NCBI RefSeq assembly: GCF_008642295.1
Contig: NZ_CP029190.1
Coordinates: 682,001-746,000, forward strand
Length of the DNA stretch: 64,000 bases
From: Streptomyces venezuelae
Lineage (GTDB): Bacteria > Actinomycetota > Actinomycetes > Streptomycetales > Streptomycetaceae
Reading direction: 5' to 3'
Part shown: positions 43,973 to 58,197 of the stretch, piece after piece
How the letters are laid out: every line of letters starts with the position of its first letter
How positions within the stretch are numbered: position 1 is the first letter of the stretch
The notes under the pieces: generated by a model
The model's input: only the letters and a program-made list of their open reading frames with translations
Told to the model about the DNA's origin: nothing
The model's database searches: none
Program-made: the position numbers and the translations under genes

Positions 43973-44788
43973 TCACTGGGGATCGAGTTGCAGCTCCTTT
44001 GTGGTCGTTGCTCGCGTGGCGGTTGAGGCCAGGTAGGTGATCCGGAGGGTGCCGGTGGTGGGTTCGCGGTCCACGAGCACGTTGACGCCGTAGACCGACT
44101 CGATGAGGTCCGGGGTCAGTACGGACTCCGGTGCGCCGGCGACGGCCACCTGCCCGTGGTCGAGGACGACGACGTGGTCGCAGTACCGGGCGGCGAGGTT
44201 GAGGTCGTGCAGGGCGACCACGCAGGTGACGTCCAGGGTTGTCAGGAGGTCGAGGAGTTCGAGCTGGTGGCGGATGTCGAGGTGATTGGTGGGTTCGTCG
44301 AGGAGGATCTCCCGGGGTTCCTGGGCGAGCGCGCGGGCGAGTTGGGCGCGCTGTTTCTCTCCGCCGGAGAGGGTGTGCCAGCTCCGGTGCTGCTTGTCGG
44401 TGAGGTCGGTCCGTTCCAGTGCTGCGTCGACGACCCGTCGATCGTGCTCGGTCAGCGCGTCGAACCGGCCGCGGAACGGTGTGCGGCCGAGTTCCACGAC
44501 CTGGCGGACGGTGACGCGGTGGTGGGCTGAGACGTCCTGTTCGACGACGGCGAGCCGTCGGGCGAGCGCGCGGCGGCCGAGGTCGTCCAGGCTGGTGTCG
44601 TCGTAGCGGACGGTTCCGGTGTCGGGGCGGCGCAGTCCGGCGAGCAGGCGCAGCAAGGTCGATTTGCCGGAGCCGTTGGGGCCGAGCAGGCCAATGATCT
44701 TTCCGTCGTGAGCCGCCATTTCGATGTTGTCGAGCAGCCGGTGGCCCTTGACCGACCAGGAGAGCTGGGTGGTGGTGATGCGGCCCAT
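43973..44788 (-). CDS. Metal-chelate ABC importer, ATPase subunit (FecE/FhuC type)
   Basis: 271 residues. Walker A GLLGPNGSGKSTLLRLLAG, the signature LSGGEKQRAQLARALA, and Walker B ILLDEPTNHLD followed by the switch His in VVALHDLN. It powers the FecCD-type permease encoded just upstream, whose stop overlaps its start by one base. It is the eighth and last gene of the Zur-controlled operon that begins at 53007. Confidence 0.92.
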   Translation of the reverse strand: MGRITTTQLSWSVKGHRLLDNIEMAAHDGKIIGLLGPNGSGKSTLLRLLAGLRRPDTGTVRYDDTSLDDLGRRALARRLAVVEQDVSAHHRVTVRQVVELGRTPFRGRFDALTEHDRRVVDAALERTDLTDKQHRSWHTLSGGEKQRAQLARALAQEPREILLDEPTNHLDIRHQLELLDLLTTLDVTCVVALHDLNLAARYCDHVVVLDHGQVAVAGAPESVLTPDLIESVYGVNVLVDREPTTGTLRITYLASTATRATTTKELQLDPQ

Positions 44789-45885
44789 CAGGACTCCAGA
44801 CGCTTCAGGACCAGGGCGAAGGCGGGCGCGCCGAGGAGCGCGGTGATGACGCCGGCGGGCAGTTCGTGGGGGGAGAACGCCGTCCGCGCGAACACGTCCA
44901 CCCAGATGAGGAAGACGGCTCCGGTGATCGCGGACAAGGGCAGCAGCGAGCGGTGCGTGGGTCCCGCCAGGATGCGGACGGCGTGTGGGACGAGCAGCCC
45001 GATGAAGCCGATCGCGCCCGAGGCCGCCACGGCTGCCGCCGTGACGACGGAGGTCAGCACCATCAGCCAGACGCGGGCCGCGGTGACGTTGATCCCCAGT
45101 GCCGCCGCGGAGTCCCAGCCGAACGTGAAGGCGTCGAGGGCGGGCGCAAAGAACTGGATGGCGACCACCCCGACCAGGATGATCACGACGGTGACGGTCA
45201 CCCCCTCCCAGCGGGCGCCGCCGAGGGTCCCGAGCAGCCAGTAGGTGAAGCCGCGGGTGGAGTTCGCGTCCCCGCTGACCATGAGGATGACCGAGGTGAC
45301 CGCGGCGAAGAACTGGGAGACGAGTACGCCGGTGAGCACCACGCGGGAGGGGCTGGCAACGCGCCCCCCGCCGAGCAGGGCCAGCAGCAGGCCGAAGGAG
45401 ACCAGGCCGCCGACGAAAGCGCCGGTCGAGAGGGAGACGCTGCCGCCGATGCCCAGCAGGAGCACGGCGACCGCGCCGGTCGAGGCGCCGGAGGAGACTC
45501 CCAGCAGGTAGGGGTCGGCCAAGGGGTTCCTGGTGACCGCTTGCAGGACCGCGCCCGAGACCGCCAGGGCCATACCGACGACTGCGGCCAGCAACACCCG
45601 AGGGAAGCGCGACTCCCAGATCAGGGCGTCCAGCAGTCCCGGCAGCGGCGGGGTGGGCGCGATATCGCCCAGACCGACATGGCGGAGGATCGTGGAGACG
45701 ACATCCAAGGGCCGGATGTCGGCGCTCCCGAAGAGCGATGCGGCGACGACCGACACCAGCAGCGCGGCCACGGCCGCGGAGAAGAGCAAGGTCGTCGAGG
45801 CGCGCCGCCGGCGCATCGGAACCCTCTCACGGCTGGTGAGCGGGGTTCCGGTGCGCGCGGCGGTCTTGTGAGAACTCGTCGTCAT
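44788..45885 (-). CDS. Metal-chelate ABC importer, permease (FecCD type)
   Basis: 365 residues, about ten membrane helices, with the BtuC/FecCD landmarks VSGAVLQAVTRNPLADPYLLG, GVSSGASTGAVAVL and GFIGLLVPHAVRILAGPTHR. One permease gene only, so it likely forms a homodimer. The ATPase gene follows with a 1-base overlap. Uptake of a metal-chelate is the family role. In this operon the cargo would be the complex of the compound made by the five preceding genes. Confidence 0.92.
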   Translation of the reverse strand: MTTSSHKTAARTGTPLTSRERVPMRRRRASTTLLFSAAVAALLVSVVAASLFGSADIRPLDVVSTILRHVGLGDIAPTPPLPGLLDALIWESRFPRVLLAAVVGMALAVSGAVLQAVTRNPLADPYLLGVSSGASTGAVAVLLLGIGGSVSLSTGAFVGGLVSFGLLLALLGGGRVASPSRVVLTGVLVSQFFAAVTSVILMVSGDANSTRGFTYWLLGTLGGARWEGVTVTVVIILVGVVAIQFFAPALDAFTFGWDSAAALGINVTAARVWLMVLTSVVTAAAVAASGAIGFIGLLVPHAVRILAGPTHRSLLPLSAITGAVFLIWVDVFARTAFSPHELPAGVITALLGAPAFALVLKRLES

Positions 45886-45897
45886 GGTGTTTCCAGG

Positions 45898-46929
45898 TCA
45901 CCCGAGTTTGTTGAGGCCGTCGACCAGCGTCGGCACGGCCGACGCGCTGCCGTAGCCGGGATCCATGTGCGATCCGGGAATGGTGATGAACCGGTCGCCC
46001 TTCACGGCGGCGAGCTTGCTGGTGAGGGGGTCCTTCTTGAGGAGGTCGATCTTCTCCTTGGCGGTGTCGTTGGGTTCGCCTCGGGTCAGGTCGGCCAGGA
46101 TGATGACGTCGGGGTTGCGGGCGGCGACCTCGTCCCAGCTGACCTCGGCCCACTTGGTCTTCGCGTCGGCGAAGACGTTCTGGACGCCGACGAGTTCCGA
46201 GATGTGCTGCGGCAGGCCGCCGGGGCCCGCGGCCCACGGAGTGCCCTCGTAGGTGGAGTAGAACCACATCACCTTCAGCGGCTTGTCCCGCTTCTTGACG
46301 GTGCCCAGCGCCTTGTCCACCACGGCCCGCTGTTCGGTGGCCAGCTTGTCACCGGCGGCGGGCACGCCCATGATCTTGCCCAGCCTGCGGTATTCCTCGT
46401 ACAGCATGTCGAAGTTCGCGCCGGCCACGCTCTCGTGGAACGCGCAGTCGAACTCGGTGAGGTAGGTCGGCACGCCCAGGTCGTGCAGCTGCTTGCGGTC
46501 ACCGGACTGCTCCGCGGTGAACATGCTCGCGAAGGAGCCGTAGACGAAGTCCGGCTGCGCTGCGAGCAGTTTCTCGTGCTTGATCTCCTGGCCGGGCGCG
46601 GAGAGCTGCGGGATCTTCTTGTACTGCCCGGCGATCGCGTCCGGCGTCTTCTCGACCTCGTAGCCCGATCCGACGATCCGGTCACCCACCCCCAGGTGGA
46701 TGAGGATCTCGGCGGCGGTCTGGTTCAGCGTGACGACCTTCTGAGGCGCGGCCTTGTACGTGACGTCGGTGCCGCAGTTCTTGAGGGTGAACGGGTAGGC
46801 CGTCGCACTCGTCGCCGTCCCCTTCGCCTTCGGCTTCGCGCCTGCATCGGAGGGTCCGTCGCCGGCACACCCGGCGACCGCGGACACCGCCAGCACCGTA
46901 AGGACTGCGGTAATCATTTTCGTTTTCAT
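45898..46929 (-). CDS. Metal-chelate-binding lipoprotein (FecB/TroA-like)
   Basis: 343 residues. A lipoprotein signal with the lipobox VAGC ends near residue 22. The rest is a class III solute-binding protein (YPFTLKNCGTDVTYKAAPQK, VVTLNQTAAEILIHLGVGDR, LAAQPDFVYGSF). The first codons are unusually AT-rich and overlap a Zur-like box on the same strand, so the transporter genes may also have their own zinc-controlled start. It lies 48 bases after the SbnA-like gene. Binds the metal complex outside the membrane. Confidence 0.9.
   Translation of the reverse strand: MKTKMITAVLTVLAVSAVAGCAGDGPSDAGAKPKAKGTATSATAYPFTLKNCGTDVTYKAAPQKVVTLNQTAAEILIHLGVGDRIVGSGYEVEKTPDAIAGQYKKIPQLSAPGQEIKHEKLLAAQPDFVYGSFASMFTAEQSGDRKQLHDLGVPTYLTEFDCAFHESVAGANFDMLYEEYRRLGKIMGVPAAGDKLATEQRAVVDKALGTVKKRDKPLKVMWFYSTYEGTPWAAGPGGLPQHISELVGVQNVFADAKTKWAEVSWDEVAARNPDVIILADLTRGEPNDTAKEKIDLLKKDPLTSKLAAVKGDRFITIPGSHMDPGYGSASAVPTLVDGLNKLG
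46908..46922 (-). promoter_or_regulatory. Zur-like box at the start of the binding-protein gene
   Basis: Minus strand CGAAAATGATTACCG differs at only the two outer positions from TGAAAATGATTACCA, the pattern I derive from the other sites here. It covers codons 3-8 of the binding protein. An internal roadblock or a second promoter is possible, though the match may partly be due to coding needs. Confidence 0.35.
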
Positions 46930-46977
46930 TGGCTGAGATATCGCTTTCGAAGGAGATGTACAGAAGGGTGCAGGCGG

Positions 46978-47967
46978 TTACCGCAGCATCGCGGCCAGTC
47001 GGTGGACGACCTGCTCGTCGTACAGGCCGTTGGCGGCCATCCAGTCGTCGTTGAACACGGTGTCCAGGTACTTGTCACCGCCGTCGCAGACCAGCACGAC
47101 GATGGTGGCCCCGGGTCCGGAGCGCTGCGCCTGCTCCAGGGCCTTGTACACCACGCCGCCGGCCGAACCGCCGATCAGGATGCCGAAGTTCCTGGCCAGG
47201 TAGCGGCAGGTCTCGAAGGCCTCCGAGTCACTGGCCCGGACCCCCTCGTCGAACAGCTCGTAGTCGACGACGCCGCCGATCTCCGAGCCCTCGGGCGTAC
47301 CGGTACCGGACTGGTGGTACGGGGCGCCGGGCCCGCCGAAGACGACGGAGCCCACCGGCTCGACGCCGATGATCTTCAGGTCGGGGATGCGCTCCCGCAG
47401 GGCGCGGCCGGTGCCGCAGAGCGAGCCGCCGGTGCCGACGGCCCCGTACAGGTAGTGGATGTCGTCGCCCAGGTCGTCGTGGAGTTCGCGGGCCAGGGGA
47501 CGGTAGCCGTTGGGGTTGCCCTGGTTGCGGTGTTGCGCGGTCCAGTAGGCGCCCTGTTCGGTTGCGAGCCGCTCGGCCACGGTGTCACGTTCGGCGGTGG
47601 CCAGGCCTTCGGCGTCCCCGGCGACGTTGAGGATGTCGGCGCCGTAGGCGAGCATGCCGCGCAGCTTGTCCGTACTGGAGTGGTTGTCCACCACGGCGGT
47701 GAACTTGTACCCGCGTTCGGCGGCGATGAGCGCCAGGCCGAGCCCGGTGTTGCCGGAGGTGGACTCGACCAGCCACCCGCCGGGGGCCAGCAGCCCCGCG
47801 GCCTCCGCCTCGTCCACCATGTTCCGGGCCATCCGGATCTTGGCGGTGCCGGTGGGGTTGTACTGCTCCATCTTCAGCAGGACGGTCGCCGAACCGTCCG
47901 GAACCGCCAGCTTGAGCAGGGGCGTTCGCCCAATCAGGTCGGATACCTTGGTCTTGATCGTGCTCAT
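46978..47967 (-). CDS. SbnA-like PLP enzyme for 2,3-diaminopropionate synthesis
   Basis: 329 residues from the ATG at 47967, overlapping the aminotransferase stop by 4 bp. Cysteine-synthase fold (type II PLP): the Lys in NPTGTAKIRMARNM and the phosphate loop in STSGNTGLGLAL. The string VVDNHSSTDKLRGMLAYGAD fits the SbnA group rather than housekeeping CysK, which has SxERR-like residues there. SbnA joins O-phosphoserine and glutamate to ACEGA, which SbnB splits to 2,3-diaminopropionate and 2-oxoglutarate. The SbnB-like partner is in the same operon. Confidence 0.82.
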   Translation of the reverse strand: MSTIKTKVSDLIGRTPLLKLAVPDGSATVLLKMEQYNPTGTAKIRMARNMVDEAEAAGLLAPGGWLVESTSGNTGLGLALIAAERGYKFTAVVDNHSSTDKLRGMLAYGADILNVAGDAEGLATAERDTVAERLATEQGAYWTAQHRNQGNPNGYRPLARELHDDLGDDIHYLYGAVGTGGSLCGTGRALRERIPDLKIIGVEPVGSVVFGGPGAPYHQSGTGTPEGSEIGGVVDYELFDEGVRASDSEAFETCRYLARNFGILIGGSAGGVVYKALEQAQRSGPGATIVVLVCDGGDKYLDTVFNDDWMAANGLYDEQVVHRLAAMLR

Positions 47968-49106
47968 GATCTGTCCTTCGCGCAGATTTCCGTCAGGCAC
48001 CGCACAAAGACGTCGTTGTCCTCGGGGGTCGACAGGGAGGCTCGGATGTGGTTCTCGTATCCCGGTTCGCGCCACGCCTTGACGATGATTCCGGCACGGT
48101 GCAGCTCCCAGGCGACCCGGTCGGAGGGGTGGCCGGTGTCGATGAAGAGGAAATTGGTCGAGGACGGGACCACACGCAGTCCCGCGGCGCGCAACCGGTC
48201 GGTGACCCTGGCGATCTCCAGGCCGGTCCGGCGTACCGTGTCGGCCAGGTGCGCATGGTCGCCCAGGGCGGCGACGGCGGCGTCCTGGGCCGGCCGGTTG
48301 ACGTTGTACGGAGTGCGGACCCGGTCCAGGGCCCGGACCAGGGCGGCGTCGGAGGCGATGCCGTATCCGATCCGCAGGCCCGCCAGACCATAGGCCTTGG
48401 AGAAGGTGCGCAGCACGATCCACGGCCGGTCGAGAGTGCGCAGGGCCTCCAGCCCGTCGGGGTACTCCGGGTCGGGGCGGGCGAACTCGCCGTACGCCTC
48501 GTCGAGCACGAGCAGGGCCGACTCCGGGGTACCGGCGACGACCCGGTCCAGCTCGCCGGCGCCGAGCATCGCACCGGTGGGGTTGCACGGGTTGGCGAGG
48601 AAGACGAGCTTCGGACCTGCGGCCAGCGCGTCACGCCAGGCAGCCGCGTCGAATCCGAACTCGGCGGTGACCGGGACCTTCTCGACCCGGGCGCCCATGA
48701 CGCGGGGGAAGATCTCGTGCAGGCTGAAACCGGGTGCCTGGGTGATGACGAGGTCACCGGGATCGAGTACGGCCTGGCACAGCAACTCCAGGATGTTCTC
48801 TGAGCCGTTGCCGAGCACGATCCGGTCGGCCGGCACGTCCAGGCTCTTCCCGATGGCGTCGGTCAGGCGCTTGCCGGTGGGATCGGGGTAGCGGGCAAAG
48901 CCGTCGGCGATTCCGAGGCGTACGGCTTCGGCGACCGCCGGCGAAACGCCGTACGGGATCTCGCTGTTGGAGAGCTTGATCACGCGGCGGGAGCCGCTGA
49001 GGACGGCCACCTCGTCCGGGTCGGCGCCGGGGTCGTAGCCGGGCAGGCCCGCCACTTCCCGGCGGATCAGCGGGGCGGAAGCGGTAGGTGCGAGAACGCG
49101 GTTCAT
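47964..49106 (-). CDS. HisC-like PLP aminotransferase
   Basis: 380 residues of the fold-type I, histidinol-phosphate-aminotransferase-like group. Landmarks: KLSNSEIPYGVSPAVAEAVR, VLGNGSENILELLCQAV, FLANPCNPTGAML, and the PLP lysine in LRTFSKAYGLAGLRIGYG. It overlaps neighbours on both sides by 4 bp, so it belongs to the metallophore operon and not to histidine synthesis. A transamination of a diaminopropionate or aspartate-like intermediate would fit; the reaction is not known. Confidence 0.85.
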   Translation of the reverse strand: MNRVLAPTASAPLIRREVAGLPGYDPGADPDEVAVLSGSRRVIKLSNSEIPYGVSPAVAEAVRLGIADGFARYPDPTGKRLTDAIGKSLDVPADRIVLGNGSENILELLCQAVLDPGDLVITQAPGFSLHEIFPRVMGARVEKVPVTAEFGFDAAAWRDALAAGPKLVFLANPCNPTGAMLGAGELDRVVAGTPESALLVLDEAYGEFARPDPEYPDGLEALRTLDRPWIVLRTFSKAYGLAGLRIGYGIASDAALVRALDRVRTPYNVNRPAQDAAVAALGDHAHLADTVRRTGLEIARVTDRLRAAGLRVVPSSTNFLFIDTGHPSDRVAWELHRAGIIVKAWREPGYENHIRASLSTPEDNDVFVRCLTEICAKDRS

Positions 49107-50572
49107 GACGTCTCCGATTCCGGGACGGGTGTGCCGGCTGCCGTTCTGCGCAGCCGTTCGACGCGGCGCAGGAAGGCGACCAGCAGGAGGGCGGCGGTGG
49201 CCGCGAGGCCGATGGTCTGGCCGATCCAGACGCCCTCGACATCGAGGCCGGCGGTCACCCCGAGCAGGTAACCCGCGGGCAGTCCGATCAGCCAGTACCC
49301 GACGAGGGAGATCCGGAAGGGGCCCGCGGTGTCGCCGATGCCGCGCAGGATGCCGTTGCCGATGTTCTGCATCGCGTCGAAGACCTGCATCAGCGCGGCG
49401 ATCAGCAGTCCGGTCACGGTGAGCGCGATGATGTCCGCGTTCCCGGCGTGCTCGTCCGAGATGAACAGGGACACGATCGGGTTCGGGACCGCCAGGTACA
49501 CGACGGCGACCACCAGCGTCGCGATCACGCCCCACCCCGTGCCGAGGAGCCCCATCCTGCGCGCGGTGGTGTGATCGTCACGGCCGTGGGCCTCGCTGAT
49601 GTGGATGGACGCCGCGTGCGAGAGACCGGCGGAGATCATGAAGACGATGTAGACGATCTGGTTCAGCACCGTCTGCGCGGCCAGGGCGTCGGCCCCCAGG
49701 GAGCCGATGACCAGGGTGAGGACACTGAAGAACCCGGCCTCCGAGGCGTAGGTGCCCGAGATCGGCAGACCGAGGCGCCAGACGGACCGGACCGCGTCTC
49801 CGTTCCACCGCCGCGCGGCGGGCGACATGAGGTACGGGCGCAGGACGCCGTCGCGCAGGATCACTGCGGCGAACGCCAGGAAGGACAGCAGGAACACCGT
49901 GACGGTGGCGATCGCGACGCCGACGAACCCGAAGGCGGGCAGCCCGAACTCGCCGTGGATCAATGCATGGTTCAGGGCGATGGTCGCACCGACCGAGGCA
50001 AGGGTGATGGCCAGCAGCGGACCGGGCCGCCTGAGACCGGTGGTGAAGTGCCGCAGGGTCTGGAACCACAGGCAGGGCAGCATCCCCGGCGCCAGCACCG
50101 TCAGGAAATCGCCCGCCTTGTCGACCACGGTCGGGTCCTGGCCGAGCAGGACGAGCAGCGGTCCGATCAGCAGCAGGGCGGCACAGAACACCACACCGCA
50201 CACCGTGGACCAGAACAGCCCGGCGAACAGCAGCGCGCCGATCCGCTCTCGGTCGTCCCGCACATGGGCTTCGGCCACCAGGTTGCCGACCCCGGTGACC
50301 AGGCCCGTCCCGGTGGTGCGCAACTGGTTGAACAGCGCGAGGGCCAGACCGGCGGCGGCGATGTCGACCGCGCCGAGTCGGCCCAGCATCACGATGTCCA
50401 CCGTGGTCAGCGCGACATAGGCGAAGTTGGTGAGGATCAGCGGAAACGCGAGCTTGAGCAGCGCCCGCGAGTTCTTGATCCACCACCCGGTGCCGGTCTG
50501 CTCCGCGCGGGTCGGGCCGGTTGTGCCGGTCGTGCCGGTCGTGTCAGTCGTGTCCGTCGTGTCGGTGCTCAC
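49103..50572 (-). CDS. MATE-family multidrug/metabolite exporter
   Basis: 489 residues from the GTG at 50572. After a Thr/Asp-rich start (TDTTDTTGTTGTT) come twelve membrane helices in two similar bundles: LAFPLILTNFAYVALTTVDI, VMLGRLGAVDIAAAGLALAL, and VWRLGLPISGTYASEAGFFS in the second. MATE proteins expel small cationic compounds using sodium or protons. It overlaps SbnB upstream and the aminotransferase downstream by 4 bp, a strong hint that it exports the operon's product. Confidence 0.9.
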   Translation of the reverse strand: MSTDTTDTTDTTGTTGTTGPTRAEQTGTGWWIKNSRALLKLAFPLILTNFAYVALTTVDIVMLGRLGAVDIAAAGLALALFNQLRTTGTGLVTGVGNLVAEAHVRDDRERIGALLFAGLFWSTVCGVVFCAALLLIGPLLVLLGQDPTVVDKAGDFLTVLAPGMLPCLWFQTLRHFTTGLRRPGPLLAITLASVGATIALNHALIHGEFGLPAFGFVGVAIATVTVFLLSFLAFAAVILRDGVLRPYLMSPAARRWNGDAVRSVWRLGLPISGTYASEAGFFSVLTLVIGSLGADALAAQTVLNQIVYIVFMISAGLSHAASIHISEAHGRDDHTTARRMGLLGTGWGVIATLVVAVVYLAVPNPIVSLFISDEHAGNADIIALTVTGLLIAALMQVFDAMQNIGNGILRGIGDTAGPFRISLVGYWLIGLPAGYLLGVTAGLDVEGVWIGQTIGLAATAALLLVAFLRRVERLRRTAAGTPVPESETS

Positions 50573-51549
50573 CAGAAGTTGACCTTTTCCCCGCGTCCGC
50601 CCGCCAGCGCGAGGTCGGCCATGTACCGGCCCAGCGCGGCGTCGGTGACCGCCATGCCGCTGTTGTAGGCGAACACCACGTCGTCGCGATGGCGGCGGGC
50701 GGGTGCCCGGCCGAGCAGGATGTCCGGCAGCTGGGCGTCCACCGATGGCAGGCTGCCGTCCGCGCCCCGCAGGTCCTCGCAGGTGGCGTGCATCTGGGCG
50801 GTGTCGGTGGCGATCCGGTAGTCCGCGCCGTGGCACACGTCGGCGTGCACGCCGTACCCGAGCAGTACGGCGACCGAGCCCGGCTTCATCCAGTCGCGCC
50901 TCACCTCCTGCGTGGCGGACAGGCCGGCAGCGCCGATCACGATGTCCGCCTGGCCGGCGGCCTGACGCAGATCCGTGACGATCTCGACATGGCGTCCGTC
51001 GACACTGTCCTGGACGGCCCGCAGCCCTTCGGGGTAGGTGCCGAACACCTGCAGCCGCTCCAGCCCGGGCATGGCCGCGACCAGCATCGGCAGTGCCATC
51101 TGCCCCTGGACTCCGGTGCCCACGACCAGCGCAGTGCGCGCGTCGGGGCAGGCCGCGCGGGCGAACAGCGCGGTGGTGGCCGAGGACCGCAGGGGTCCGA
51201 GCTTCACCACGTCCATCAGCGCGATGGGGGCCCCGGTGGTGTCGTCGACGAGGAAGACGAACGAGTGGAAGCGGTAGCTGTCGCGGGTGCGGCGCGGGTC
51301 GAACTCGTAGACGGCCTTGAAGCAGACGGTGCCGCTGCCGCCGTCCCTGGCCACCATCGAATAGCTGAGTGAGCGGTGTCCGGGGTCATCGATGATCGTC
51401 TTGACCGGGTTGTCCGAGCCGCCTTCGCGCAGCGCGCGGTAGGCCTGCTCGACGACCGCGATCACCTGTCGGTGGTCGACGTCCAGTCCTTCCTGCTGCG
51501 CTTGTGGCAACAGCCACAACTGCCCTGGTGGGGCGTAGTTCTGTGACAT
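50569..51549 (-). CDS. SbnB-like dehydrogenase for 2,3-diaminopropionate synthesis (ornithine cyclodeaminase family)
   Basis: 326 residues. The mu-crystallin/ornithine cyclodeaminase fold is clear: substrate Lys in TVCFKAVYEF, catalytic strand LMDVVKLGPLRSSATTALFA, and NAD site ALVVGTGVQGQMALPML. SbnB oxidises ACEGA with NAD+ to give 2,3-diaminopropionate. The pair with the SbnA-like protein in one operon makes this role more likely than ornithine cyclodeamination. It lies 63 bases after the decarboxylase-like gene. Confidence 0.82.
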   Translation of the reverse strand: MSQNYAPPGQLWLLPQAQQEGLDVDHRQVIAVVEQAYRALREGGSDNPVKTIIDDPGHRSLSYSMVARDGGSGTVCFKAVYEFDPRRTRDSYRFHSFVFLVDDTTGAPIALMDVVKLGPLRSSATTALFARAACPDARTALVVGTGVQGQMALPMLVAAMPGLERLQVFGTYPEGLRAVQDSVDGRHVEIVTDLRQAAGQADIVIGAAGLSATQEVRRDWMKPGSVAVLLGYGVHADVCHGADYRIATDTAQMHATCEDLRGADGSLPSVDAQLPDILLGRAPARRHRDDVVFAYNSGMAVTDAALGRYMADLALAGGRGEKVNFW

Positions 51550-51612
51550 GCGGGGGTTCTCCTTCGTTCGAGGTCGTGCTCGGGGCGTGCGCGGGGCGTA
51601 CGCGAGGTCGCG

Positions 51613-53007
51613 TCAGATTCCGTCCAGTCGCCAGCGCGGCGGGCCGTCGCCGTCACCGAGCCACAGGGCTGCTTTCAGCGGCAGTGCGGCGTCGTGGAAG
51701 GGTGATTCGTTGGAGTCCATCTGGTAGCCGGCGGTGTTGAGGTAGACCAGGTGGTCACCGCGCCGTACGGGCCGGGGGAAGCCGATCTTCCGCCAGGTCA
51801 CCAGGTCGCTCTCCAGACACGTCGAGCCCGCGACACAGGCCGGGAACACCTCGTCGGCAGCCGGTCCCGGGGAGAGGAGCAGCGGATCGGGCAGGTAGTC
51901 GCTGTTGAACCACTGCTCGGAGAGGCAGAAGCTGCTGCCCGCGACGGTGAGGATCGCGTACCCGTCGGTGGCCCGCCGGTCGTCGACCTGCTGCACACGG
52001 AACAGGGTGAATCCGGTCTGGTCCAACAGCGCTCGGCCGGGCTCGACGAGGAACCGGATGCCGGTGCGTGCCGCTTTCGCCGACAGGCTCTCGGCACCGT
52101 CGACCGGGTGCGCCATGATCGCGCGCACCGCCTCGACGGCAGTCTGCCCACCGTACGGATAGAAGTCCTTGAAGTGCTTGTCCGCGTGGTAGTGGGCCGG
52201 TTCGTTCTGCGCGAGGAACTCCGACCACAGCCGCGGATCGACGTAGCGAACCGGCAACCCGCCTCCGATGTCGACCAGTTCGGCCGTGGGGCAGCCGCGC
52301 CGCCGGGCGTCGAGACAGTGCTCGATCATCTCGTTCGCCGCCGCCGCGCGTTCCGCTGCGGAGTAGCCGCCCAGATGGAAGGAGAAGCCGCGCAGGCGGA
52401 CGTGGTCGGCGAGTTCCCCGCACAGCCCGACGGCCGCCGTTCGCTCGGCGGGCGACAGCCCGAAGCGGCTCCCCGACTGGCCGGCAGTCCGGGCCCGCAG
52501 CAGCACACTGGCCTGACGCCCGGCGGTCCGCGCGGTTGCCGCGAGCCGGCGGAGTTCGCTGACCGAGGCGACGGCGACCAGGCAGCCGTGCTGCACGGCG
52601 AGGGCGAGCAGCGCGTCGTCCTTCTCCGGGCCGGAGATCCCGATCCGGTGCCCGGGCACTCCCCCGGCCAGGGCCTTGACCAATTCGGGGGCACTGGCGA
52701 CGTCGACCCCGATACCGAGGGCGGCGGCGGACCGGACGTAACAACCGGCCTTGTTCGCCTTCTTGGCGAACAGGATGTCGGCGGTGGCTCCCGATTCGGC
52801 GAACGCCTGACGGAGCCGGGCGACGTTCTCCTCGAAAACCTCGGGCAGCACGACGTGCAACGGGGATCCCAGGCCGTCCAGAAGATCGGCCAGCAGGACG
52901 CGATGATCCGCCAGGAGCGTGGAGACCTTGGGATGCCGGAGTGCGGTGAGCGCGAAGGGCCGGACTCCGGCCACCGGGCGCTCGAGCACCTGTTGTGAGA
53001 TAAGCAC
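51613..53007 (-). CDS. Type III PLP decarboxylase-like protein (Y4yA/SbnH-like), first gene of operon
   Basis: 464 residues, alanine-racemase/ornithine-decarboxylase fold. PLP lysine in ILFAKKANKAGCYVRSAAAL, His in RLRGFSFHLGGYSAAE, glycine-rich VDIGGGLPVRYVD, EPGRALLDQTG, and the second-subunit Cys in STCLESDLVTW. It matches best the Y4yA-like group. SbnH in staphyloferrin B removes a carboxyl from a diaminopropionyl unit to give ethylenediamine, so a similar step is proposed. The GTG at 53007 lies 8 bases after the minus-ten box, so the transcript is probably leaderless. Confidence 0.8.
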   Translation of the reverse strand: MLISQQVLERPVAGVRPFALTALRHPKVSTLLADHRVLLADLLDGLGSPLHVVLPEVFEENVARLRQAFAESGATADILFAKKANKAGCYVRSAAALGIGVDVASAPELVKALAGGVPGHRIGISGPEKDDALLALAVQHGCLVAVASVSELRRLAATARTAGRQASVLLRARTAGQSGSRFGLSPAERTAAVGLCGELADHVRLRGFSFHLGGYSAAERAAAANEMIEHCLDARRRGCPTAELVDIGGGLPVRYVDPRLWSEFLAQNEPAHYHADKHFKDFYPYGGQTAVEAVRAIMAHPVDGAESLSAKAARTGIRFLVEPGRALLDQTGFTLFRVQQVDDRRATDGYAILTVAGSSFCLSEQWFNSDYLPDPLLLSPGPAADEVFPACVAGSTCLESDLVTWRKIGFPRPVRRGDHLVYLNTAGYQMDSNESPFHDAALPLKAALWLGDGDGPPRWRLDGI

Positions 53008-53015
53008 CCCGTACT

Positions 53016-53043
53016 TCTATATGAAGATGGTACTCATTTTCAA
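53016..53043 (-). promoter_or_regulatory. Zur-like box over the metallophore operon promoter
   Basis: On the minus strand, TTGAAA (53038-53043), 16 bases and TATAGA (53016-53021) form a good sigma-70-like promoter. The Zur-like box TGAAAATGAGTACCA (53028-53042) covers the minus-35 and spacer, so Zn-Zur would block RNA polymerase. It differs at one position from the pattern shared by other sites in this window. Confidence 0.7.
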
Positions 53044-53127: not shown

Positions 53128-55314
53128 TCAGTGGACCCGGCGGTCTTCCAGAGGGGCTGCCCGCAGGATGTCGTCGCCGACGCGGGGCAGGTGCGGAGTG
53201 TGGTTGACCAGCCGGGCGGAGTTGGCGACCACTGCGATGCTGCTGGTGTTGTGCAGCAGGGCGGCGAGAACCGGGTTCATCGAGCCGCCGGCGCCGGCCA
53301 CCAGGCCGAGCAGGTTGACGCCGATGGCGAGTCCGTAGTTCTGCCGTACGACGCGCAGCGTGTGGCGGCTGAGTTCGACAACGGCTGCGACCTGGCGGAG
53401 GTCGTTGCCCGCGAGCGCGATGTCGGCGGTTTCCAGGGCGACGTGGGAGGAGTGTTCGCCCATGGTGATGCCGACGTCGGCCAGAGCGAGGGCGGGCGCG
53501 TCGTTGGTGCCGTCCCCGACCATGGCGACCGTGTGTCCCTCCGCCTGGAGGTCGCGGATCAGCTGGAGCTTGGCCTCCGGGAGTGCGTGTGCGTGCACCT
53601 CGGTGATGCCGAGGGTTTCGGCGACGACCTGTGCGGTCTCCGGTGCGTCGCCCGTGAGCAGGATCAGGCGGTCCACGCCGAGTTCGCGGAGCTGCTGGAT
53701 GACGGTCTCGGCACCGGCGCGTACGGCGTCGGAGACGCCGAGCATGCCGATCAGGTCGGCGTCGTGGGCGATGCAGATGACCGTCTCGCCACCGCCCCGC
53801 AGGCGGTCGGTCCAGCCCCGCGCCCGGTCGGTCAGTGCGATGCCGTGCCGGCGCAACAGGGCGGGGCTGCCGACGAGGAGGCGGGTACCGTCGAGTTCGG
53901 CGCGCATGCCCATGCCCAGGACGACCTCGCACGCCTGGTGGATGGGGACGTGCAGGTGCTGTTCCTCGGTCCGGGCGACGATGGCCTGGGCGAGGGGGTG
54001 GCGGGCGTGCAGCTCGCCGGAGGCTGCCAGGCCGAGGACCTCGTCCGCGGTGAACTGCTCGCTGAGGGTGACCACACTGGTGACCAGCGGCTTGCCGAAG
54101 GTGAGGGTGCCCGTCTTGTCGAAGACCACGGCGGTGACCCTGCCGATGCCTTCGAGGTGGGTGCCGCCCTTGATGAGGGTCCCGCGGCGCGCGCCGTTGC
54201 CGATGGCGGCGCTGATGGCCGTGGGTGTGGCGAGTCCGGCGGCGCAGGGACAGGCGACCAGCAGCATGGTCATCGCCCGGCGGGCGTCGCGGGTGACGAC
54301 GTAGGTCAGCGCCGCCAGCGCGAAGGAGACGGGCACGAAGCGCCGGGTGAAGCGTGTGGCCACCGTCTGGATCGGGGCGCGGTCGGACTGCGCTTCCTCG
54401 ACCCGGCTGATGATCCGCCCGACCGTGGTGTCCCTTCCGACGGAACCGGCGCGGACGGTGAGCGACCCGGAGGTGACGATGGTGCCGGCGTACACGTGTA
54501 CGCCTTCGCGGGCGTATACGGGCAGTGCCTCGCCGGTGACGGCCGCCTGGTCGACCAGGGCCTCGCCGGAGAGTACGTGTCCGTCGACGGGAATGCGGTG
54601 GTGCTCGTACACCGCGACGACATCGCCGGCTTCCAGCTCGTCCAGCGCCACCTCGACCTCGACGTCGTCGCGTACGAGCCACACCCGTTCTTCGCCGATG
54701 GTGAGCAGGTCCTCGATGGCCCGGCGGGTCCGGCGCAGGGTGAGGGTCTGGAGGAACTCGCCGATGTTCAGCAGCCACAGCACGGTCAGAGCGACCACGT
54801 TCTCGCGCAGCACCAGTGAGATGACGGTGGCGGCGGTGACCAGGGTGTCCGTGCCAGGGCTGCTGCGTCCGCGCAGCGTGCGCAAGGCACCCCGGAAGAA
54901 GGGAAGCCCTGTGAAGACCGTGATCACGCCAAGGAATCCGGAGGAGCCGAGGGTGATCGGTGGCCGGGCGAGCAGGCGGCGCACGGCCACGAGCGCCAGG
55001 ACGGCTCCGCCGACCACCAGCCGAGCGACTTCCCCGGTGGAGGAGTCGGGCAGTGACCGGGAAGGCTTGGCTGCCACCAGGGAGGGGGGCGGCGCCTCCT
55101 CGAGGGCTGCGACCAGTGTGTCCACGTCGAGCTGGTCCGGGGACACCCAGATCACGACGCTCCCGGTGCGCGGGAAGATCCGCAGCGCCCGGAAGCCGGC
55201 CATGCCGCTCAGGCGGTCGTCCACGAGTCCGGCACAGCCGGGCCGGTCGCGCAGCCACGGGACGGTCAGCCGGGCACGTCCCGAGGCCACGGAGCGCACG
55301 ATCACGGTCTGCAT
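53128..55314 (-). CDS. P1B-type metal-transporting ATPase (CtpC-like)
   Basis: 728 residues from the ATG at 55314. Metal-site CPCAAG in VACPCAAGLATPTAI, phosphorylation motif FDKTGTLTFGKP, TGEALP, and hinge MVGDGTNDAPALALAD. The sixth-helix CPC and lack of a CxxC domain at the N-terminus fit the Mycobacterium CtpC group, reported to move Mn or Zn. The DUF1490 gene is 2 bases upstream, an arrangement I know from the CtpC locus. An exporter inside a zinc-starvation island is surprising. Confidence 0.9.
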   Translation of the reverse strand: MQTVIVRSVASGRARLTVPWLRDRPGCAGLVDDRLSGMAGFRALRIFPRTGSVVIWVSPDQLDVDTLVAALEEAPPPSLVAAKPSRSLPDSSTGEVARLVVGGAVLALVAVRRLLARPPITLGSSGFLGVITVFTGLPFFRGALRTLRGRSSPGTDTLVTAATVISLVLRENVVALTVLWLLNIGEFLQTLTLRRTRRAIEDLLTIGEERVWLVRDDVEVEVALDELEAGDVVAVYEHHRIPVDGHVLSGEALVDQAAVTGEALPVYAREGVHVYAGTIVTSGSLTVRAGSVGRDTTVGRIISRVEEAQSDRAPIQTVATRFTRRFVPVSFALAALTYVVTRDARRAMTMLLVACPCAAGLATPTAISAAIGNGARRGTLIKGGTHLEGIGRVTAVVFDKTGTLTFGKPLVTSVVTLSEQFTADEVLGLAASGELHARHPLAQAIVARTEEQHLHVPIHQACEVVLGMGMRAELDGTRLLVGSPALLRRHGIALTDRARGWTDRLRGGGETVICIAHDADLIGMLGVSDAVRAGAETVIQQLRELGVDRLILLTGDAPETAQVVAETLGITEVHAHALPEAKLQLIRDLQAEGHTVAMVGDGTNDAPALALADVGITMGEHSSHVALETADIALAGNDLRQVAAVVELSRHTLRVVRQNYGLAIGVNLLGLVAGAGGSMNPVLAALLHNTSSIAVVANSARLVNHTPHLPRVGDDILRAAPLEDRRVH

Positions 55315-55715: not shown

Positions 55716-56172
55716 TCAGATACCTGCCGCGGGCCGTGCACGGGCTGGTACAACGGTCCCGGTCTCCCTGGCGACGCGCCGGGAAGCGGCCAGTCGGCAA
55801 CCGAGGTAGATCAGGAACGAGAGGGTGGTGACGTAGGGGCTGATGGGGACGGTGCCGCCGAGCGTGAGCAGGATCCCGCCCTCCATGGACACGAGGGCGA
55901 AAACGACGCTCAGCACCGGCAGCAGCACGGGGGACGCCGTGATCCGGGCAGCTGCCGCCGCTGGCGTGACGAGAAGGGACAGGACCAGCAGGGCGCCGAC
56001 GATCTGTACGCAGAGGGCGACGGCCAGCCCGAGGACGAGCATGAAGGACAGGGACAGCGCGCGGACGGGCACCCCTCTGGCTTCGGCTGCCTCCGGGTCG
56101 GCACTCGCAAAGGCCAGCGGCCTCCAGAGCACCGCGAGGGCGATGAGCACCACTCCGGCCAGCAGCGCGCAC
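55716..56172 (-). pseudogene. Truncated ZnuB-like zinc ABC permease
   Basis: About 150 residues match the second half of a ZnuB/AztB-type permease: LAGVVLIALAVLWRPLAFAS, DPEAAEARGVPVRALSLSF, VQIVGALLVLSLLVTPAAAA, and a final helix. Full permeases are about 280-300 residues, so the first four to five helices are missing. The frame continues upstream to 56828 with low-complexity sequence that does not look like a protein. The ABC ATPase and binding-protein genes that normally accompany znuB are also absent. Confidence 0.6.
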
Positions 56173-56771
56173 ACACGATGCTCCGCGCCCGGGACCTCGT
56201 CCGCTTCGGCGTGGACGGGGACCGCTGGGGGCTCCCCCTCACGCGCGGTGCGATCCGCCGACGCGTGGTCCCCGTCACCACGACCGAGGAAACGATGACC
56301 GCGCTCGGAGCACGAGCAGGTGCCAACCGCATACCGTCCTCCCTGCAAGGGGAAACCGAAACGGTAATCAGTTGAATTATCGCCCTCCGGCGGCGAGCCC
56401 TCTGGGCGGGTGGCACCCTTGGCCATCAGTTGAAAACGATTACCATGGCGACTTAGAGTGGGGGCGCTGCGTGCGACGACCGGCCGGCGCCAAGGGGGGC
56501 TCCAACGGGCGTCGCACGTAGCTCGGTTGATGTCCGACTCGACCGCGGCGGCCCCAGCGGCCCACTCCGGAGGCCGCTGCCCCGGCAAGCACGGCGGCAG
56601 CCGGGCCGCACCCTGACCGCAGCGCCCCAGCGGCCGTCCGTTCACGGTCGGGGCACTGCTCGGGCCGGCGCCGGACCCCTCCCCCGGCGTCGGCCTGCAC
56701 CCCGCCCCACCTCGACTGCACCGCCGCCCCTGCGGTCCAAGCACCCGTCGGCCGTGGCATCGAAGCTCTAA
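56173..56771. other. Gene-free region between ZnuB remnant and L32 gene
   Basis: About 600 bases. Holds a Zur-like box at 56431-56445 and a weaker one at 56362-56376, and then about 300 GC-rich bases with no gene I can support. A promoter reading right from the 56431 box ends in nothing recognisable, so a ribosomal-protein or zinc-uptake gene may have been lost here. Confidence 0.45.
56431..56445 (+). promoter_or_regulatory. Zur-like box upstream of the ZnuB remnant
   Basis: TGAAAACGATTACCA, one base different from the pattern TGAAAATGATTACCA. It overlaps a possible rightward promoter (TTGAAA, 18 bases, TAGAGT at 56454-56459). It probably once controlled znu genes, or a lost gene to the right. 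Confidence 0.55.
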
Positions 56772-56800
56772 TTGAAAATGGATGCCATTACCAATAGGGT
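56772..56800 (+). promoter_or_regulatory. Zur-like box over the L32/CobW promoter
   Basis: TTGAAA (56772-56777), 17 bases, TAGGGT (56795-56800), 40 bases before the L32 start. The box TGAAAATGGATGCCA (56773-56787) covers minus-35 and spacer, with three differences from the shared pattern. Its placement is the same as at 53016. Confidence 0.5.
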
Positions 56801-56840: not shown

Positions 56841-57011
56841 ATGGCCGTCCCCAAGCGGAAGATGTCCCGGAGCAATACCCGTCACCGCCGCGCCCAGTGG
56901 AAGGCCACCACCCCGCAGCTGGTGCCGATCACGGTCGACGGCTCCGTCTACCAGGTACCGCAGCGCCTTGTGAAGGCGTACGAGCGCGGCCTGCTCCGCC
57001 CCGAAGGCTGA
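56841..57011 (+). CDS. rpmF: Ribosomal protein L32, zinc-independent (C-) form
   Basis: 56 residues from the ATG at 56841, after AGGAG. The start [20 protein letters not shown] is diagnostic for L32. There is no cysteine at all, so it lacks the zinc-ribbon of the C+ form. C- paralogues replace zinc-binding ones when zinc is scarce, freeing the metal, and are usually controlled by Zur. It is joined to the CobW gene by 4 bases. Confidence 0.93.
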
Positions 57012-57015
57012 TCCC

Positions 57016-58197
57016 GTGGCCCCGTTCGACCGCCTTCCGGTGACGGTTCTGTCCGGTTTCCTCGGCGCGGGAAAGACCACCCTGCTCAACCACGTGCTCA
57101 GCAACCGCGAGGGCCTCCGGGTCGCGGTGATCGTGAACGACATGAGCGAGGTCAACATCGACGCCGCGCTCGTGCGCGGTGGCGAGGCGGCGCTCTCGCG
57201 CACCGAGGAGCGGCTGGTCGAGATGACCAACGGCTGCATCTGCTGCACCCTGCGCGACGACCTGCTGGAGGAGGTCGACCGGCTCGCCCGCGAAGGCCGC
57301 TTCGACTACCTGCTCATCGAGTCCAGCGGCATCTCCGAGCCCATGCCGGTCGCCGCCACCTTCTCCTTCCCCCGGGACGACGGCGCCACCCTCGGCGACC
57401 TGGCCCGACTCGACACCATGGTCACCGTCGTCGACGCCTCGGACTTCCTGCGGGAACTCGCCGGCGGGGACGAACTCGCAGCACGCGGCCTCGACCAGTA
57501 CGAGGACGACGAGCGGACCGTCAGCGATCTCCTCATGGACCAGGTCGAATTCGCGGACGTCATCGTCCTCAACAAGCTCGACCTGGTCGGGCCGGGCGAC
57601 GCCGCACGGCTGCGCGCCACCCTCGCCCGGCTCAATCCCGAGGCCCGGATCGTGCCCGCCGTACGCGGCCACGTCGCACTCGAACAGGTCCTGGGCACCG
57701 GACTGTTCGACGTGGAGCGCGCCCAGCAGGCCCCCGGCTGGGTCAAGGAGCTCAACGGGGACCACGTCCCCGAAACCGAGGAGTACGGCATCTCCTCACT
57801 GGTGTTCCGCGCCGATGCGGCCTTCCACCCCGGCAGGCTCTGGACGTTCGTCACCAAGGGCCTCGACAGCGGCACCTTCGGCAGGATCCTGCGCTCCAAG
57901 GGGTTCTTCTGGCTCGCCAGCCGCCCCCGGGTGACCGGCCTGTGGTCCCAGGCCGGCGCGGTGGCCCGCTTCGAGCCCTCGGGAGCCCGTGGCACGGACA
58001 CCACCCAGGGCCAGGAACTGGTCTTCATCGGCATCGGGCTGCGCACCGAGGCGCTCCGGGCGGCGCTCGAGGCCTGCCTGCTCACGCCTGACGAGCCCGT
58101 CCCGGCCGAGGACGATTTCCCGGCATGGGAGACGTACGGCATCGACGACGCCTGCGAGCACGAGCCCGCCGCCACACCTGTGACGGCGGCGGCCTGA
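57016..58197 (+). CDS. CobW/ZNG1-family GTP-dependent zinc chaperone
   Basis: 393 residues from the GTG at 57016. Walker [16 protein letters not shown], the metal-binding [23 protein letters not shown] and NKLDLVG identify the GTPase domain. A CobW C-terminal domain follows, with [18 protein letters not shown]. Such proteins deliver zinc to essential enzymes when zinc is low. Coupled to C- L32 behind a Zur-like promoter, the zinc role is the natural one. A strong terminator follows. Confidence 0.92.

Follow-up and report, generated by a model that had tools for sequence, protein, structure and literature searches.

To our knowledge, few zincophores of known structure have been described. The opine zincophores staphylopine and pseudopaline, the latter Zur-controlled, are small zinc chelators whose synthesis couples an amine reductively to a 2-oxo acid and needs no nonribosomal peptide synthetase (NRPS), while ethylenediamine-disuccinate (EDDS), which is biodegradable, consists of two aspartates linked by a serine-derived two-carbon bridge. 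Rhizobactin and rhizobactin B are likewise said to be ethylenediamine-bridged amino acids. Production of EDDS in Amycolatopsis japonicum is reported to be Zur-controlled (PMC4993170, PMC9252823), and the operon for the related ethylenediaminesuccinic acid hydroxyarginine (EDHA), described with the four genes AesA-D, is reported as iron-responsive (PMC10702961). Reported EDHA clusters occur in Streptomyces, Nocardia, Corynebacterium and Burkholderia anthina (PMC8914351, PMC10702961, PMC11888242), S. scabiei being among the named sources. Here, an eight-gene operon is described from a window of 64,000 nt of the 7.5 Mb genome of Streptomyces venezuelae (NZ_CP029190.1, positions 682,001 to 746,000, forward strand). 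It likely encodes enzymes that make, and transporters that secrete and recover, a small aminopolycarboxylate zinc metallophore under Zur, ethylenediamine-bridged and built without a ligase, on a branch separate from the described systems; the metal, the product and the direction of transport are those we infer from the DNA. The operon and its promoter comprise the following features:

53016..53043, minus strand: promoter with Zur box, read from the sequence (-35 TTGAAA at 53038-53043; -10 TATAGA at 53016-53021)
53022-53042, minus strand: predicted 21-nt Zur box TGAAAATGAGTACCATCTTCA, covering the whole spacer (16 nt) and the larger part of the -35 element
51613..53007, minus strand: pyridoxal phosphate (PLP)-dependent decarboxylase (DC) of the Orn/DAP/Arg type, 464 aa (PF02784)
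50569..51549, minus strand: SbnB-like protein of the ornithine cyclodeaminase (OCD)/mu-crystallin family, 326 aa (PF02423)
49103..50572, minus strand: MATE exporter, 489 aa (PF01554; TIGR00797, 214.6 bits, cut-off 147.4)
47964..49106, minus strand: HisC-like class I/II aminotransferase, 380 aa (PF00155; TIGR01141, 286.6 bits, cut-off 276.55)
46978..47967, minus strand: PLP-dependent beta-substitution enzyme (PALP) of the CysK/CBS/SbnA family, 329 aa (PF00291)
45898..46929, minus strand: FecB/EitA-type substrate-binding lipoprotein, 343 aa (PF01497)
44788..45885, minus strand: FecCD-type permease, 365 aa (PF01032)
43973..44788, minus strand: FecE-type ATPase, 271 aa (PF00005)

Translation of the minus strand between 43973 and 53007 yields eight consecutive open reading frames (ORFs) free of internal stops. 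In order from the promoter, their Pfam families are those of DC, OCD, MATE exporter, HisC-like aminotransferase, PALP, FecB, FecCD and FecE, so that the eight same-strand genes of an earlier sequence-only reading of this DNA are all intact and of the expected families. That reading had most genes overlapping by 1-4 bp, which holds by a bare majority: four of the seven junctions overlap by 1-4 nt, the series being a gap of 63 nt, three overlaps of 4 nt, gaps of 48 and 12 nt and an overlap of 1 nt. Its proposal of a small metallophore, exported by MATE and taken up through a FecB/D/E system, agrees with the Pfam families and with the lack of a synthetase in the operon. No peptide synthetase was found among the eight genes by Pfam, nor any NRPS-independent siderophore (NIS) synthetase in the operon, the IucA/IucC matches of the genome lying only at 0.40 and 2.00 Mb, with the operon at 0.73 Mb. 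Unlike the opine zincophores, the operon has no nicotianamine-synthase-like family among its eight genes (Pfam). Rhizobactin reportedly bears a malyl amide, for which a synthetase is expected, an enzyme absent from the S. venezuelae operon.

To place the operon among its relatives, 66 loci were compared, 51 from a scan of species genomes with an OCD alignment and 15 from longer whole-genome stretches, with homologues counted as present at 30 % identity over 60 % of the length. Two types were labelled by gene order and content, and the labels were afterwards tested on the enzyme trees. Type I loci (38 loci, including the S. venezuelae operon), mostly ordered DC-OCD-exporter-HisC-PALP, occur in the actinobacterial genera Streptomyces, Amycolatopsis, Micromonospora, Verrucosispora, Actinoplanes, Pilimelia and Herbihabitans, and further in Pseudomonas, Pollutimonas, Microbulbifer, Xylophilus, Acinetobacter and a Cellvibrio bin. 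Type II loci (28 loci), mostly ordered OCD-DC-PALP-MATE, include the putative EDDS operons and the EDHA-like loci, and are found in Streptomyces, Amycolatopsis, Rhodococcus, Arthrobacter, Microvirga, Burkholderia and other Betaproteobacteria. The HisC-like aminotransferase, to which the sequence-only reading had assigned no role, is the hallmark of the type I branch and its most distinctive feature, being encoded in 37/38 type I loci and 0/28 type II loci. A MATE exporter is present in 32/38 type I loci; in five of the six loci lacking it, which belong to Amycolatopsis, Micromonospora and Verrucosispora, ABC-type genes adjoin PALP. FecB is found in 22/38 type I loci, while a TonB-receptor gene lies directly upstream of DC in 13/15 proteobacterial type I loci, locus L080 counted (59-74 % identity to the L080 gene; six confirmed by Pfam). 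As for the two exceptions, the Cellvibrio bin has such a gene elsewhere and Xylophilus has none. Exporter and uptake genes thus stand beside the biosynthetic genes across phyla, as expected of a metallophore cluster in general. The titles and abstract openings returned by full-text literature searches named no aminotransferase-containing, Zur-controlled cluster of this kind, and the type I branch is apparently separate and unstudied. The aminopolycarboxylic-acid metallophore class reported for antiSMASH 7 (PMC10320115) may already flag the S. venezuelae operon.

The enzyme trees bear out most of this division. Type I forms one side of a single branch in both the OCD tree (67 rows; SH-like approximate likelihood ratio test, SH-aLRT, 91) and the PALP tree (66 rows; SH-aLRT 99), while the DC tree requires two changes, with the long-branched Cellvibrio row joining Microvirga and breaking the split. 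Because the 24 actinobacterial type I rows of the OCD tree form one group (100) nested within proteobacterial rows, transfer of type I from Proteobacteria to Actinobacteria is suggested, the rooting of the tree being uncertain. Among the type II PALPs, those of four betaproteobacterial loci (L074, L075, L073 and L081) branch closest to type I, and could represent intermediate stages from which type I arose.

Several type I loci vary in content or number. The type I cluster of Xylophilus ampelinus (L059, 8588-13729) lacks the aminotransferase, an upstream TonB gene and a Zur-type site. Streptomyces bikiniensis (L035/L036) and Pilimelia terevasa (L046/L078) each have two type I clusters on different contigs within a single record set, which may reflect duplication or mixed assembly. 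In two Amycolatopsis type I loci (L045, 16893-17672; L141, 5837-6601), two ABC-type genes are followed by an additional gene; that of L045 is a methyltransferase by Pfam and that of L141 has a like ending, which suggests a methylated product in these strains.

The promoter of the S. venezuelae operon reads, on the minus strand, TTGAAA - 16 nt - TATAGA - 8 nt - GTG, the GTG being the start codon of DC, and with this geometry the transcript would be leaderless or nearly so. It is not among the promoters listed by a generic sigma-70 scan; the element is conserved upstream of the Streptomyces orthologues. At up to one mismatch, the motif reported from chromatin immunoprecipitation of S. coelicolor Zur, tGaNNatSatNNtCa (PMC5472717), has its sole match in the window at 53022-53036 (0.08 expected; 8/100 shuffles matched), with 10/11 specified positions, which upholds the Zur-like box that the sequence-only reading had placed on a single promoter. 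Over its left 16 nt, the box conforms to a pattern that also occurs at the promoters of paralogues of the ribosomal proteins L33 and L32, one of them 3.7 kb upstream, and rpmF and rpmG/B are reported Zur targets in S. coelicolor (PMC5472717). Across the whole genome, TTGNAAAYGRNTNYCA has four matches, namely the operon promoter, an L33-paralogue promoter and the window sites 56430 and 56772, while TGRWAAYGRNNNCCAT occurs exactly in six rows at five places, including one more L33 promoter, and, with one mismatch allowed, in 55 rows, the reversed control giving 8; both patterns were composed after some of the sites had been seen, and are supportive rather than an independent test. Against a 7-1-7 Zur consensus, TGAAAATGATTTTCA, the operon box has three mismatches, and the genome has one site with at most two. 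Counting against a 21-mer consensus is weak (operon 17; shuffled maximum 17) and is not taken as proof. The Zur reading is kept because the same arrangement occurs at the ribosomal-protein paralogues and because the box matches the published motif; the operon is thus probably repressed by zinc through Zur.

Comparable boxes occur across the type I loci. Among 24 actinobacterial type I promoters the published motif is matched at 10/11 positions in 15, 9/11 in five and 7-8/11 in four (random 160-bp pieces: 1 % score at least 10 and 4.5 % at least 9), and in 18/24 the motif begins approximately 26-37 nt upstream of where the decarboxylase match starts. No iron box was found at 20 actinobacterial type I promoters (best 9-12/19; shuffled maxima 11-13), nor at the S. 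venezuelae operon (best 10/19; shuffled maximum 12), whereas an iron box scoring 14-17/19 lies upstream of OCD at each of the 27 Streptomyces type II loci scanned (maxima 11-13 in 20 shuffles each). In Proteobacteria, 14 of the 15 type I loci were scanned, Cellvibrio being left out, and 13/14 have a Zur-type 23-nt match of 16-18, Xylophilus having none. These sites lie 47-195 nt before the aligned start of the TonB-receptor gene, and at two loci the core GTTATANNATAAC is matched at 13/13 positions. No clear Zur or Fur box was evident in 1 kb at 14 of the 15 proteobacterial type II loci (Zur 11-15/23, shuffles 13-16; Fur 10-12/19, shuffles 10-13).

The sequence-only reading had named the zinc-repressed aes operon for EDDS as the closest described parallel, and Amycolatopsis genomes allow this to be examined. 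An OCD match is present in 24/80 genomes, of which four have type I (79-81 % identity to the S. venezuelae OCD), the other 20 have type II (21 matches; 40-44 %) and none has both. Within 1.5 kb upstream of the 21 type II matches, 11 have Zur-type sites of 18-19/21, two have iron boxes and eight have neither, these scores being obtained without shuffle controls. One of the eight (L116, in its longer stretch L139) has an 18/21 Zur-type site further upstream, followed by a gene for SBP_bac_5 in place of FecB and then OCD, while for another locus (L119/L143) no Zur-type site over 14 was found within 17 kb. All three of the 11 that are covered by longer stretches (L137, L138 and L142), and L139, have the order OCD-DC-PALP-MATE. 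Such Zur-box OCD-DC-PALP-MATE operons in Amycolatopsis genomes are termed putative aes loci here, and would be EDDS operons given that EDDS production in A. japonicum is Zur-controlled and that the EDHA operon has AesA-D. The S. venezuelae operon has in common with them the core PALP, OCD and decarboxylase in one operon under Zur control, but neither their clade nor their gene order: the putative aes loci have no aminotransferase, their OCDs are 41-42 % identical to that of S. venezuelae, and in the OCD and PALP trees they lie across one branch from it. EDDS remains the nearest described kind of system, while a close kinship with aes is not supported; if the Amycolatopsis loci are aes, the S. 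venezuelae operon would belong to a separate branch. Similarly, the type II loci of Streptomyces and Burkholderia, which include a B. anthina locus (L072) and relatives of an S. scabiei protein, presumably make EDHA. They have the OCD, DC, PALP and MATE families in common with the S. venezuelae operon, but differ in gene order, in lacking the aminotransferase and, in the 27 Streptomyces loci, in their iron boxes; neither iron-box control nor the order OCD-DC-PALP-MATE was found for the S. venezuelae operon.

The formation of 2,3-diaminopropionate by SbnA and SbnB, proposed in the sequence-only reading, is not borne out by profile searches, in which PALP scores 243 bits against the SbnA cut-off of 349.95 (TIGR03945) and OCD 74.2 bits against the SbnB cut-off of 326.9 (TIGR03944). 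As these scores fall far below the cut-offs, diaminopropionate as a free product is not established, and PALP and OCD might equally build N-substituted diaminopropionates directly. The locus thereby differs from sbnA/sbnB/sbnH of the staphyloferrin B system, as it does in the lack of an NIS synthetase in the operon. PALP also scores below the cut-off of the CBS model (245.8 bits; cut-off 510.25), and its Lys43 and TSGNTG are invariant in nine aligned sequences, S. venezuelae among them. The DC sequence includes FAKKANK, HLGG, EPGR and CLESD motifs, and in the profile search no equivalog model fits it; an assignment as LysA was excluded (114 bits; cut-off 297.9). The OCD is probably an NAD(P)-dependent imine reductase or dehydrogenase. 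The best structural matches of its AlphaFold model (predicted local distance difference test score, pLDDT, 91.2) are pyrroline-2-carboxylate reductase, archaeal alanine dehydrogenase, SbnB, iminosuccinate reductase and CmnK, and the proximity to imine reductases and SbnB counts for the chemistry proposed below. The Z scores lie within a few units of one another (6t3e 35.7; SbnB 34.2; iminosuccinate reductase 33.6; CmnK 32.1), so that the fold cannot separate the reductive from the oxidative direction. The aminotransferase is 37 % and 30 % identical to the two better-scoring matches of the HisC model in the genome.

In the proposed pathway, PALP would use O-phospho- or O-acetylserine to attach a C3 unit derived from serine to the nitrogen atom of amino acid X. 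OCD would link the amine left free to a 2-oxo acid (Y) by condensation and reduction of the resulting imine, and DC would strip the serine carboxylate, leaving the ethylenediamine-bridged chelator X-NH-CH2-CH2-NH-Y. By analogy with EDDS, these three enzymes would suffice for X-NH-CH2CH2-NH-Y, with neither ligase nor NRPS required, and the order of the steps, X and Y are left variable. The HisC-like aminotransferase would provide the 2-oxo acid Y or, alternatively, phosphoserine. The ligand would be exported by MATE and its zinc complex brought back by FecB/D/E, with zinc-loaded Zur repressing the operon. More tentatively, we consider it possible that the ethylenediamine-bridged zincophore of these clusters is chemically novel and forms a third class beside those of EDDS and EDHA. 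The dedicated aminotransferase would make the 2-oxo acid of one arm, and the cluster, common to Gram-positive and Gram-negative bacteria, each with their own Zur box and importer, would probably have passed from Proteobacteria to Actinobacteria. A possible candidate for this 2-oxo acid is an imidazole- or aryl-pyruvate, and one conceivable product would be the succinyl/histidine hybrid C12H18N4O6 (314.123 Da). If the proposed pathway is right, the type I branch would offer a short, ligase-free enzymatic route to new biodegradable chelators resembling ethylenediaminetetraacetic acid (EDTA). The comparison also suggests that a single enzyme core has come under zinc control in some branches and under iron control in another. 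The regulator box and the additional aminotransferase would then be markers that genome mining can read.

Several observations weigh against the zincophore reading. The promoters of L046, L047, L048 and L078 score only 7-8/11 on the published motif, although L046 has a Zur box further upstream and L047 a visible variant. Xylophilus (L059) is a type I locus with neither aminotransferase, box nor TonB gene. The proteobacterial Zur scores exceed the best of ten shuffles (14-17) at nine of 14 loci, equal it at four and fall below it at one; being weak alone, they leave the argument to be carried by the position of the sites and the two perfect cores. TonB-receptor homologues occur in 13 type II loci as well, and hence mark metallophore uptake generally, not the type I branch. 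Finally, the best model for the FecB/D/E set is an 'F420-0' ABC transporter, though below its cut-offs (lipoprotein 204 bits, cut-off 392.4; EitA model 141.1 bits, cut-off 640).

Among the alternatives, the one with most in its favour, though still unlikely, is that the operon makes [S,S]-EDDS itself, or EDHA, from a rearranged aes cluster in which the aminotransferase merely tops up oxaloacetate or aspartate. The three core enzyme families and the metal control are those reported for EDDS in A. japonicum (PMC9252823, PMC4993170), and the one type I locus without an aminotransferase indicates that this enzyme may be dispensable. However, a single branch parts OCD and PALP, as well as DC except for the Cellvibrio row, from the putative aes and EDHA-like loci, the aminotransferase is confined to type I (37/38 against 0/28), and the putative aes locus L139 carries an SBP_bac_5 gene, not FecB, behind its Zur-type site. 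Furthermore, two Streptomyces genomes (G186 and G274) keep both type I and type II OCD genes, so that the two are no simple substitutes there. It is somewhat more doubtful that the aminotransferase converts 3-phosphohydroxypyruvate to O-phosphoserine for the PALP step and leaves the product unshaped. HisC-family enzymes do act on phosphorylated substrates and in staphyloferrin B synthesis phosphoserine is provided by a dedicated enzyme, SbnI, but type II clusters, which lack an aminotransferase, have PALPs of the same family.

Control by another Fur-family regulator, with a ligand for iron, nickel or copper, appears very improbable. The genome has four Fur-family genes, the boxes of this family resemble one another and the related EDHA is reported as iron-responsive (PMC10702961), but the operon box recurs at ribosomal-protein paralogue promoters, a reported Zur signature (PMC5472717), and no iron box was found at the 20 type I promoters, against 14-17/19 at 27/27 Streptomyces type II loci. 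Slightly less probable still is the production of free 2,3-diaminopropionate or ethylenediamine as a building block for a peptide whose genes lie elsewhere, as is the case for viomycin or zwittermicin. SbnA and SbnB homologues are reported often to serve NRPS clusters (PMC9248904), and SbnB and CmnK, both diaminopropionate-forming enzymes, are among the near structural matches of the OCD model. Against this, exporter and importer lie within the same operon, the gene set recurs as a unit in two phyla, and no NRPS or NIS gene is found among the eight, IucA/IucC lying elsewhere and the NRPS search being confined to the operon. A zinc metallophore operon thus remains the preferred reading.

Beyond the operon, a neighbouring regulon is represented by three features:

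56772..56793, plus strand: second Zur-type promoter, preceding the L32-family and CobW/G3E GTPase genes
56841-57011: L32-family gene (Pfam Ribosomal_L32p)
57016-58197: CobW/G3E GTPase gene (Pfam cobW and CobW_C)

Directly upstream of the operon, on the same strand, lies a heavy-metal P1B-type ATPase gene (53128-55314, minus strand). It is not conserved beside the relatives, a partial match being present at 1/38 type I loci, and was therefore not counted as part of the system. A further Zur-type site, TTGAAAACGATTACCAT (56430-56446, plus strand), is located approximately 400 bp before the L32-family gene and near a fragment at 55716-56171 on the minus strand, which matches an ABC-3 (ZnuB-type) metal permease in its C-terminal half only (positions 130-253 of the 258 in the Pfam model). 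Beside these zinc genes, the fragment looks like a truncated zinc importer gene.

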